Part shown: in pieces, positions 13,047-18,236 of the stretch
Numbering within the stretch: the stretch's first letter is position 1
How the letters are laid out: each line of letters opens with the position of its first letter
Source of the DNA: Prillingera fragicola
Taxonomy: Eukaryota > Basidiomycota > Tremellomycetes > Trichosporonales > Trichosporonaceae
Length of the DNA: 64,000 nt
Assembly: GCA_002335605.1 (NCBI GenBank)
Contig: BEDY01000003.1
Location: 434,001 to 498,000 of the forward strand
Reading direction: 5' to 3'
The notes under the pieces: model-generated
The model's database searches: none
The model's input: the letters and a program-made list of their open reading frames with translations, nothing else
What the model was told of the DNA's origin: nothing
Made by a program: the position numbers and the translations under genes

Positions 13047-15579
13047 ATGGTGACCTGGTCGCGCCCTCTGGGCCAACCCACAGAGCCTTGGCCAAACCAG
13101 CCCACTGTCATTACGGGTGACAGTGAGTCTTATCCTGTCTTATCTTGCTCTTGCTCCGTATACTGACAGCGCTCAGCCGTGTACATGCGCTTGGTCACCC
13201 TCAACGGTCCGACCTCGGCTACTACAACTCGGAACGTGACCCTGGACGAGCTCCTTGTCAAGTCCTCCAGCAAGCCCAGTGGCAAGCTTGCAGATGGTGG
13301 TCTTCTAATCGGTCGTCGCTCATCTGGAGCTCTTTCTGATGTAAGTCGTGTGCGTGCTCGTCGACGCTTTCGGCGACGACTCCAGCATCTCCCCTGCACC
13401 CTGCCGCGGCTCATTGCCGGCCCAGCCCCTGGCTATTCACCAGTGGCACGTGCAACTCCCCGCTTGCCCCATCTGTCTCAGCCCCTAGGTGGCTCAAAGC
13501 TGACTCTCAAAGGTATTCAATGCACGCGTTCTGTCTCGCAACCATGCTCAGTTCCTCGTGGACTGCAAGGGTCATGTCTGTGTTATCGACCTGGGAAGCA
13601 TGCACGGCACAACACTCGAGCGTGGCAGTGGCAGAATGATGCCCTGGTTCATTTCAACCACTTCCGCCACCCAGGTCTCTGACGGCGATGTGCTCGTCTT
13701 TGGCAAAGCTATCGATGTGCGTGGCATTATGCACGAGCCAGTTCGTGTACGCGTTCAGCTTCGCTACGCCGCGTCCAACGGTGCGGGCCGCGTCAGTGTC
13801 ACCGATTTTGCCGGTGTCAAGGACGTTGCCGCTATCAACGTCAGTATCAATGGCGAGGCGTCCCTTGCCACGGAGCCGTCGGCGACCCCGACAATCTCAG
13901 TGACTCCTGCAACTGAGGAGGCGCCTCGCCGCAACAGCTATGGCCTCAACCCCTCGGTGGTGTACGAGTCCGAGCCAGAGGAAGAGTTTCCGCGTGGCCC
14001 ACCATGTGAGGGCTTTGCTCAGCCTATTCCAGCTCCTGCCACTCAATTCGATGGGGTTGTCGTGATTGATGATGACACTAGTTCGGAACAGGAGGTCCAG
14101 TTTGTTAAAGCGACTCAGGACGCCGCGGGTTCTCAGCAATCTCCCATTGTCCTGGACGGCGAGACTCCAGAGGCGGACGAGCAAGTACCCAACGTCACGA
14201 TTGTGAATGTGACCTTCAATGGTGAACCGGTTGCCGTTCAAGAGGTCACAGGGCTGTCACTCTTTGGTGATTATGCCGACGACAGCGACGTCTCCAGCCG
14301 CGGCTCGGTTGTTGATGAACACGATCGCCAGGACGATAACGCAAGCGCTCAGTCTGACGACGAGATGGCTTCCAATGCTGGCTCTGACGGTAACGACTCG
14401 GAGGGCCACGAGTCTGTCACGTACAACTTTGCGGACATGTTTGGTCTGGCCGTCCAGAGTGAAGACGAGTCTGCTCTCTCCAACTCTGACATTGAGAACG
14501 ACCACTCTGAAGGTGACGCGCAAGTCTTTGAAAGCGGCGAGGAAGACGTCGGCGAAGACGGCTTCGGCGACGACGCCTCCGGCCTCAGTGATGCTGCCTC
14601 GGCTGTTGATGAGGGCGACATCGGCTATCCTCGCGACAGTCTTGCTGGTCTCTTTGGCAGCGAAGATGAGGACGGTGACAATTTCTTCTATGCGAACGGC
14701 TATCCTGACGTGGAGGAAGGGAACGAGTCCGAGTCCGAGTCCGAGCACGATGGCGGAACCAAGTATTTGGACGACGATGACAGCGAGGACGAGTCCTACC
14801 GCGAGGGTGGCAGTGAGCTTGACGACGACGCCGCTGACGACGTCTCTGAGGACGACGCCTCCGAGGAAGAAGACGAAGAGCAGCACATCAACTCGACTGA
14901 CCTCCACCGCCCATTCATCTGGTGCGCCGAGGCAGGCTGCACCTGCAGTCTTCCGTCCCTTCCTCGTCTTCCCATGTCACTCGAGAGCACTAGCACGCGC
15001 GTGTTCACGCCAATGATGTCGCCACCTCACTCAACGGAGAACTCGCCACAGCGCGAGGATATCCAGCTCGAGTCGCTCAGCACGCCTTCTGCGCGCCCGC
15101 CTACTGTCATTGGCCTCGCCACGCCACCCTCGCCCCAGGCCGTCCTCAAGGTGTCAGTCGACACGTCCGAGCAAGACGTCGAGCCTGTTTCCATTCCAGC
15201 CTTGTCGCCGGCTCGCGGCAGCAAGCGCAAGCATGACGAGGTCGTAGAGCTCACCGAAAGCGACAGCCGCAAGAAGCACGAGGCGGACCCCACCAGCCTC
15301 GAACACGCACGCGGCACGGACCTAGCTGCGATCATGACCCAAGCCGCAGCCGAGCTCACTGACAAGGCGACCAACACTGCCGCCGAGCCACCAGTCGCCC
15401 CCGCGGCGCCAACAGCGCCAACAGAGCGCCCGCCCAAGCGCCGCCGCATCTCCCACGGCCTGGGCTATGTCCGCCGCTGCATCCGTACGGCCGCGCCCAA
15501 GGTCGGCCTCGTCGCCCTCGGTGTCGTGCTCGGGAGTGCCGGCACGATCAGTGCTTTGCTGACCTTTGCGGATGAGTGA
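13047..15579 (+). CDS. Tail-anchored FHA-domain protein
   Basis: Phosphothreonine-binding FHA protein apparently anchored in a membrane by its C terminus. Exons 13047..13122, 13177..13340 and 13513..15579 encode 768 aa. The second intron (172 nt) separates FHA strands; across the junctions the domain (about residues 27-140) shows GGLLIGRRSSG, LSRNHAQF and DLGSMHGTTLE, the standard phospho-binding loops. Residues about 150-620 are highly acidic, Ser/Asp/Glu-rich and probably disordered. A basic patch (KRKHDE, then RPPKRRRIS) precedes a single hydrophobic segment at about residues 743-764 with only three residues after it, the signature of a tail anchor. FHA plus tail anchor resembles SLMAP/Far10 of the STRIPAK complex, but the coiled coil of those proteins is not evident, so orthology is uncertain. 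The ATG has a strong context (CCACCATGG). Confidence 0.85.
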
Positions 15580-15784: not shown

Positions 15785-18236
15785 CTAGCCACGGAACCCG
15801 CCCGTGGAGCCAAACCCGCCCGCGCCGCGCATCGTGACGTCGAGGTCGTCCACAGCCTGGATCGGCGCCAAGTGGCACTTCTCGAGGATGAGCTGCGCGA
15901 CGCGGTCGCCTGCCGCGACGTCAAAGTCGGTGTCGGCGTGGTTGAACAGGAGCACGCCGACTGGTCCGCGATAGTCGGCGTCGATGACGCCGGCGCCGAC
16001 GTCGATTGCGTGCTTTGACGCCAGGCCCGAGCGCGGGGCTATCCGCCCGTACGTGCCCTCGGGGACGGCGATGGAGATTTGCGTCTCGACGAGCGCCTTG
16101 CCGCGTTTCGGGATCGTGGTGTCGGCGGCAGCGTAGAGGTCGTAGCCGGCTGAGAGCGGGGAGCCGCGCGTGGGCAGCTTGGCCGAGCTCGAGAGGAGCT
16201 TGACGAGGAGCGTGTCGGTCGGCGGCTTGACGTCGCCGTTGCTCGAGTCGGGGGTCTTGCCTGCGACGGCTGCGGCGAGGCCAGCGCCCGCGCCGGCGAC
16301 ACTGGCGGCAGCTACGCCGCGGGCCGAGGCCGGCTCGGGCTCGTCGTCGCTCGACTCGTCGGGCTGCTCAATCTCAAGGCTCTTGGCCTCCTCCTTGGGC
16401 TCGGGCTCGGGCGTCGGCTCACGTGGAGTCGCGGCGACGGGCGTCGCCGGCTTGGACTCCTTGGGGGTTGGGGGAGTGGACTCCTTGGGGGCGGACTCCT
16501 TGGGGGTAGGCGGGACAGACTCCTTGGGAGTAGCGGCACCCGAGGCTGGGGCCGAGCTCGCAGCAGCAGCAGCGACCTTGGCGACAGGGGTAGCAGCAAT
16601 GGGGGCCGTGTTGGCCGACGGCTGGTTGGTCTCGAGGTCTACCATGTTGGGGCGGACATTCTTGCCGCCAAACCAGTCACCAGCAGTGAGCGCCGGTTCG
16701 GCCGAGTTGGCTGCCGGGTAGAGGTCGGTCTGGAACCCCTCGGCCTTGCGGGGGACGACAAACGCGAGAGACTCGATGGACGAGCCGGCGAGCTTGTACC
16801 CGCGAGCAATCTCGTTGTGGTTGCACTCGAGGGCGCGGCGGGGGATGAACCCGATACCGCGCTGGGGGTCCGAAGTCTTGTACTCGTTGAGAAAGTGGAA
16901 CTGGTCGTCGGCAAACTCGTAGTACCGAATGTTACCGTCGCCCTTGCCCGAGAGGAAGAGGACGTCGTTGCCCTCGGCAAAGAAGGGAATGATGATACCC
17001 GATGACGAGTCGAGCGACTGGGTGTCGAGGTTGGTCAGGCCCGCAGTGTCCCAGAGCGAGAGCTGGCGGTCCGACATTTTGCTGAATCCAGTGGTGGCGA
17101 TACGGTCGCGGTCGCCGAGCCAGACAACGCGCGAGCCCTTGATACCGCCGTGGCCGTCAGTGACGCGCACAGCGTCGGCACCCGCACGGGGGTCGAAGAG
17201 ACGCAGCTTGCGGTCGCGACACGTCGTGGCAAGGGTGGTGCCGACAGAGTTCCACGCAATGCTCTGGATCGAGTCCTTGTGACCCGCAAGCGACAGCACG
17301 GGGGCGTCCTGGTTACCCTCGAGATCCCAGACGCGCACGAGGTGGTCGCCCGAGGCCGAGGTGAGGAGGTTGGAAGCAGCAGGGTGGAACACCACCTGGC
17401 CGACCTTGCGGCCGCCAGCGTTCAGCTTGCCGCTCGGTGCGAGGTCCTCGGGTGCCCAGTGGTCCTCTCCCCAGCCGTCAAACATGTTGTCCTCGACGCG
17501 CCACAGGAAGACTGACACCGTTAGTGCTGCAACCATGTCCAAGGCTGAAGCGCGTGCCGAGCCACTTCTCGTGCGACTCACTCTTGCCATCCTCTCCACC
17601 AGAAACAACAAGGTTGTCATCAAAAGGCGACCAAGCAGTGTCGAGCCTGCCCGTCAGCCCCTCCCGCCAAGGTCAACTCACACAGGCCCAGTATGGCTGC
17701 GCGCCAGCGGCAGAATATCCGGCAGCTTGGTAGGGAAGTGCGGCGCCGCGGGCGGCGTGTTGGGCGAAAAGCTAGGCAGGATCGCAAACGCCTTCACAGT
17801 GTTAGCTCCCTCGCGCACGCACACGAGCACAAGCTGGACTCACGCCTCCACCCGACACCTGCCAGTTCACGGCAATGTATTTCTGCCCGTCAGCTCGTCC
17901 CCCGCGTCTACGCCCCGCCTCAGCCCAAGCCTCAGCGACTTGGGCCTCGGCATCGGCGTCGCCTCGCGCGACCTACTCCAGAGGCAGTAACGAGGTCCGT
18001 ATCCCAGGCGCTCCCGCTGATCTTGGCGTTCTCATAGTTGACCTTCGAGCGGGAGCCGTAGACGTGGCGATATTTGGACTGCGGTGTTAGTTGACGTCAA
18101 CTACGTGCTGCTGCTGCTGATAGGGGAGGGGGACGATGGGGGAGGGGAACGATGAGGCGCGGCGACATCATCGGTCTCGGCCACTGCTGCTGAATGCAGC
18201 TACTGGGATACGTACAGGGCGCACGAATCGCGACAT
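15785..18236 (-). CDS. Coronin-dUTPase fusion protein
   Basis: Two proteins in one. Residues 1-400 are coronin, an actin-binding WD40 propeller: N-terminal [15 protein letters not shown], then [39 protein letters not shown], the GNIRYYE strand and the coronin extension [16 protein letters not shown]. Residues about 408-543 are a linker rich in Pro/Ala/Lys/Glu with PTPKES repeats. Residues 544-687 are a whole dUTPase (dUTP to dUMP plus pyrophosphate) with motifs AGYDL (567-571), [26 protein letters not shown] and [10 protein letters not shown]. Exons are 18216..18236, 17977..18078, 17844..17882, 17682..17791, 17582..17646 and 15785..17511, giving 687 aa. The last exon carries most of the propeller, the linker and the dUTPase in one open frame. 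Coronin's usual C-terminal coiled coil is missing. No in-frame Met lies between Met402 and the dUTPase start, so a free dUTPase would need other means. Confidence 0.93.

Follow-up and report, generated by a model that had tools for sequence, protein, structure and literature searches.

The locus analyzed here raises the question of what a dUTPase is doing at the C-terminal end of a coronin, where related proteins carry a trimerizing coiled coil, and whether the two domains belong to one protein at all. It lies within a stretch of 64,000 nucleotides of Prillingera fragicola (GenBank GCA_002335605.1, contig BEDY01000003.1, positions 434,001 to 498,000), termed here the window, and was read as a minus-strand gene of six exons (18236 to 15785) with GT-AG introns that encodes a protein of 687 aa (Table 1). 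The splice sites are those predicted from reading the DNA, and with them exons 1–5 are joined in frame to exon 6, giving a coronin propeller, a linker and a dUTPase. The central claim of the preliminary description, that coronin and dUTPase share one frame, is borne out, as the final exon is open from the propeller to the dUTPase stop and a single open frame contains Pfam matches to both dUTPase (PF00692, E 1.1e-43) and coronin WD40_4 (PF16300, E 3.3e-14). A linker does separate the domains as had been described, but it measures ∼160 residues rather than roughly 135. The features of a short coronin, N-terminal DUF1899, propeller and WD40_4, are all present by Pfam, and over residues 1–400 the protein is 78% identical to coronin P0085. 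Its in-frame Met are found only at residues 1, 122, 258, 402, and 673, and since there is none between 402 and 673, exon 6 offers no start close to the domain from which a dUTPase by itself could be made. No stop codon precedes the dUTPase in the fusion frame of the window. The gene has a convergent neighbor on the plus strand (13504–15579), the open frame of which ends 205 bases from the stop of the fusion; by eye, its start resembles an FHA domain and the remainder is very acidic.

Table 1. Parts of the coronin-dUTPase gene, in positions of the window, with the evidence for each.
Feature	Position	Strand	Evidence or remark
Exon 1	18216..18236	-	ATG, codes MSRFVRP, donor GTACGT
Exon 2, coronin N-terminus (DUF1899)	17977..18078	-	PF08953 match at G000:C3:451980-452081 (window 17980-18081)
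Exon 3	17844..17882	-	Weak PF08953 continuation, E 0.217, below cut-off
Exon 4	17682..17791	-	DNA reading
Exon 5	17582..17646	-	DNA reading
Exon 6, remaining propeller, linker, dUTPase and stop	15785..17511	-	Inside 622-aa stop-to-stop frame
Coronin propeller share of exon 6, WD40_4 (PF16300) at end	16664..17511	-	Open-frame residues 293-335
Linker, residues 396-555, predicted disordered, coiled coil not found	16184..16663	-	Heptad count, AlphaFold2
Acidic linker motif, conserved	16340..16378	-	Alignment and pattern; Q382 and S387 invariant
dUTPase domain (PF00692), five motifs	15800..16183	-	Pfam, motif patterns

The dUTPase appears complete. Regular expressions for the five dUTPase motifs match at residues 567, 605, 618, 647, and 674 of the 687-aa protein, as the preliminary description had claimed for all five, and the domain is of single length. 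The solved sequences nearest to it are dUTPases (4oop, E 1.6e-60; 2pc5, E 1.7e-60), and the matches to solved dUTPases, including 4oop, 1q5h, and 3hhq, extend over the full-length domain with E-values of 1e-47 to 1e-60. An AlphaFold2 model of the exon-6 product (574 aa, single chain, 26 sequences, the propeller being cut by the exon border) is weak overall, with a mean pLDDT of 58.2 and a pTM of 0.46, and in it the dUTPase is beta-rich, mostly at pLDDT 70–90, with the last 15 residues loose. A single-length, five-motif dUTPase has to assemble into a homotrimer to form its active sites. That dUTPase active sites are built only in the trimer is stated too by Eckert, Hammesfahr and Kollmar (2011; PMC3203266).

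The fusion is not confined to the window. A search with the dUTPase part among proteins of fusion-like length gave 507 matches, and 29 of the 120 listed carry both PF16300 and PF00692; together with a fused fragment from a further search (P0278), at least 30 database proteins share the architecture. Those with names come from Cryptococcus (neoformans, decagattii, deuterogattii, amylolentus, depauperatus, and unnamed species), Kwoniella, Kockovaella, Papiliotrema, Naematelia, Tremella mesenterica, Dioszegia, and Cutaneotrichosporon. The five motif patterns occur in 27 of 30 fused proteins, the remaining three (P0081, P0100, P0102) failing motif 4 only, which P0081 misses by one residue (KSD for GD). 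The Cryptococcus deuterogattii models P0100 and P0102 lack pieces of the propeller in addition to motif 4, probably because of wrong introns. An alignment of 25 of the 30 fusions with the window covers the junction, and in these 26 sequences the coronin part and the dUTPase have mean pairwise identities of 0.776 and 0.774, respectively, and the linker one of 0.36; such nearly equal conservation of the two domains argues that the fusion is more than chance. One bird DUT record (P0239, Elachura formosa/Spelaeornis formosus) differs from the Papiliotrema laurentii fusion by one mismatch in 149 residues, and from its sequence is probably fungal contamination. A two-gene reading of the DNA was rejected, as orthologues share the fusion and the frame has no Met between residues 402 and 673.

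How the fused proteins differ from other coronins was assessed in a search with residues 1–400 as query, in which 2400 proteins passed and 120 were listed, 24 fused and 96 others. By a heptad count, which is a crude test of our own making and not a published program, no coiled coil was found in the linker of the window or in any of the 31 fused linkers (30 database fusions plus the window). The AlphaFold2 model shows no helix in the linker (piece residues 284–429), a low-confidence region where pLDDT is below 50 throughout, in agreement with the count and with the absence of a coiled coil noted in the preliminary description. Among the 96 non-fused coronins listed, by comparison, 90 have a coiled coil, 84 by score and six more (P0124, P0150, P0161, P0165, P0170, and P0178) by a conserved tail motif. 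The other six of the 12 tails without a score (P0121, P0122, P0183, P0186, P0207, and P0216) have neither; P0121 from Vanrija, P0122 from Saitozyma, and P0207 carry a linker of the fusion type, and the tails of P0183, P0186, and P0216 look like odd gene models. The classical trimer motif, within the last 60 residues of these 96 proteins, has R in first position in 2, K or Q in 70 and another letter in 11, and is absent from 13; K or Q is also what PMC3203266 gives for most Basidiomycota. One of the 11 motifs with another first letter sits inside the dUTPase remnant of P0122. Many fused linkers, moreover, begin with a chance string resembling the trimer motif, such as KVVDLE, and hence the motif alone is no test.

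The fused linkers have a conserved acidic motif, LEIEQPxxSxDE, which in its strict form is found in 27 of 31 and, allowing LEV and LDI, in 30 of 31, a looser look recovering P0067, P0080, and P0092 of the four missed and leaving P0093 without it even so. Q382 and S387 are invariant in the 26 aligned rows. The motif pattern is also met among the 96 non-fused coronins listed, in P0121, in P0122, and in that of Phaffia, there as LDIKQEEEDSENEDE, and P0207 has it as well (its row had been cut too far along in the pattern script), with no match to this narrow pattern in the remaining 92. Since the motif is common to the fusions and, in altered form, to the Phaffia coronin, it probably predates the acquisition of the dUTPase. 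As to its nature, we would guess at an acidic element of the Arp2/3 type or at a site for a kinase.

The genome (20.2 Mb, 17 contigs) has three PF00692 matches, one in the window and two that are exons of one gene on C2 (G000:C2:488599-489368, minus strand), a free dUTPase of five exons in which all five motifs are visible. The separate dUTPase that the preliminary description had suggested looking for therefore exists and is intact; that description had seen a threat to the fusion in such a copy if the fused one proved untranslated, and nothing shows the latter. The fused enzyme need not be the only dUTPase of the cell, and the fusion is not refuted. Among fusion-bearing species a free dUTPase was seen in this genome and in Cutaneotrichosporon spelunceum (P0225). 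Free dUTPases of Trichosporon asahii and Cutaneotrichosporon oleaginosum are also among the matches listed, and no coronin of either is among the 120 listed of 2400. A second coronin, likewise suggested as a check, was found too: PF16300 exceeds the cut-off at three places, the window and two on C1 that are 2.7 kb apart, and the C1 pair was read as belonging to a single tandem coronin whose propellers flank a D-glycerate 3-kinase (G000:C1:3801961-3807830; kinase match to 6ckg, E 1.6e-56). Outside the tandem gene, a homologue of the kinase (47% identical) is found at C11:483458-484135. A tandem coronin with this kinase is described for Filobasidiella in PMC3203266.

The fused dUTPases appear to have a single origin. 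A tree with the domain of the window and those of 21 of the 30 database fusions places all 22 in a single clade (96/88; recovered in 94% of 200 bootstrap trees), as would be expected from one fusion event. The tree excludes P0026, P0106, P0030, P0298, and P0047, in which the pattern used found no domain, and P0231 (the fused domain but for one residue) and P0239 (the probable contamination), both removed by hand. The clade splits into a branch of three rows, to which the window and Cutaneotrichosporon belong, and one of 19 rows that includes the named Tremellales, and the domain of the window groups with that of Cutaneotrichosporon spelunceum (96/84). Cutaneotrichosporon and Vanrija belong to the Trichosporonales by taxonomy look-up, the orders of Dioszegia and Kockovaella were likewise looked up, and the other genera of the 19-row branch we take to be Tremellales. 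By this sequence grouping, the gene of the window shares descent with the fused proteins of Cryptococcus. The neighbors of the fused clade are dUTPases of Rhizoctonia and free ones of Filobasidium (89/85, not a starred branch), and the free Trichosporonales dUTPases do not lie beside it; the AU test does not reject a tree that groups the fused and the free Trichosporonales dUTPases (p 0.22). As for timing, Phaffia rhodozyma belongs to the same class, in the order Cystofilobasidiales, and its coronin (P0139) keeps a coiled coil and lacks a dUTPase; the swap is therefore not class-wide. Either it would have occurred later than the split from Phaffia or it would have been reversed in Phaffia, the first needing fewer steps. 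Phaffia is the only member of the Cystofilobasidiales, and no coronin is named as Filobasidiales, among the 120 of 2400 matches listed.

What, then, does the dUTPase do? We consider it rather probable that it replaces the coiled coil as the trimerizing element and probably stays catalytic. The N-terminal propeller would bind F-actin, by analogy with other short coronins, the dUTPase homotrimer would do what the C-terminal coiled coil did before its loss, and three coronins would thereby be held together on long flexible linkers. Since one structure provides both trimer and active site, catalysis would be retained with the trimer, and the protein probably hydrolyzes dUTP. Bulk dUTP removal could fall to the free dUTPase that the genome encodes separately, and the fused copy could then have a mostly structural role and perhaps act as an enzyme locally. 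That the dUTPase serves as a trimerization module had been proposed in the preliminary description and is sound reasoning given the coiled-coil counts (0/31 fused against 90/96 others), but it had already been printed in 2011. Nothing was found in support of its further suggestion that nucleotide-pool control is placed on actin structures. A related idea, to which we give very little credence, is that the trimer is a nucleotide-sensitive clamp, in which dUTP or dUMP would order the C-terminal arms and alter the number of coronins held; if so, the assembly of actin patches would sense the dUTP pool or S phase.

The conserved motifs would also be expected if catalysis itself was selected, with coronin addressing the dUTPase to actin structures or keeping it cytoplasmic and the trimer a side effect. 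In keeping with such tethering, 27 of 30 fused proteins retain the five patterns, and conservation is equally high in the dUTPase and in the coronin domain. The active site, however, coincides with the trimer, so that motif conservation cannot separate this reading from replacement of the coiled coil, and the free dUTPase in the genome together with the lack of a coiled coil in all 31 fused linkers favors the structural swap, so we regard tethering as unlikely.

Slightly less likely still is that the locus gives two products by alternative splicing or an internal start, the full-length fusion plus either a coronin without the dUTPase or the dUTPase alone. Some database models would fit this. 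The closest coronin among the matches listed, P0121 of Vanrija pseudolonga (84% identical over residues 1–400), is annotated as 529 aa without a dUTPase and ends in SSVAKCK directly before the dUTPase position, possibly from an intron read through in the annotation or from true loss. In Cryptococcus bacillisporus a dUTPase of 157 aa is annotated by itself (P0231); from PSNTLL to GSTG it is one residue off the fused domain of C. decagattii P0068, from which it differs also in its own first residues. As P0231 is the fused domain of its species group, some annotation splits the locus, and the record would stem either from a gene model divided in two or from another transcript made at the fusion locus. 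By eye, only the end of the dUTPase is left in the Saitozyma model P0122, and P0207 departs from the dUTPase frame. Such odd models may, however, be annotation errors, and in the window the frame has neither a Met between residues 402 and 673 nor a stop before the dUTPase. An artefact of assembly, frameshift or gene model can be dismissed, as it is refuted by the same architecture in 30 database proteins, 25 of them aligned with the window over the junction.

The preliminary description was unsure whether this fusion had been reported, and it has been. In Eckert, Hammesfahr and Kollmar (2011; PMC3203266), a Tremellomycetes coronin with a dUTPase instead of the coiled coil is described, the Filobasidiella fusion has cDNA support from a transcript across both domains, all dUTPase motifs are present, a further free dUTPase exists in the genome, including in Cryptococcus, and section 7 predicts that the coronin trimerizes through the dUTPase. 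Fusion and trimer interpretation are thus both published, and the gene of the window is one more orthologue. No later experiment on the function of the fusion was found among the papers listed in searches of open-license literature. A Cryptococcus coronin, CNAG_05301, is listed in a septin interactome table in PMC11651612. Added to the published picture here are the one fused clade, the evidence from Phaffia that the swap is not class-wide, and the shared acidic linker motif. The fusion is also a natural experiment, with an obligate-trimer enzyme where related proteins carry a trimerizing coiled coil, and it allows one to ask whether a coronin tail needs only valency and whether an actin function was added to a DNA-metabolism enzyme.

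Compared with the short coronin Crn1 of yeast and Agaricomycetes, the protein of the window has the same propeller, DUF1899, WD40_4 and low-complexity unique region, but a dUTPase in place of the C-terminal trimerizing coiled coil. With the homotrimeric eukaryotic dUTPases (4oop, 1q5h, 3hhq) it shares the full-length domain and five motifs, although theirs is free, while that of the window stands at the end of 550 residues of coronin and linker. The tandem coronin with the inserted D-glycerate 3-kinase is likewise a coronin-enzyme fusion and is found in the same genome, but it involves another coronin class and another enzyme. The closest likeness is to the Tremellomycete fusion of Filobasidiella/Cryptococcus, which has the same domain order, no coiled coil, all motifs, an extra free dUTPase and the same trimer inference, and from which the gene of the window differs only in its species, a member of the Trichosporonales.
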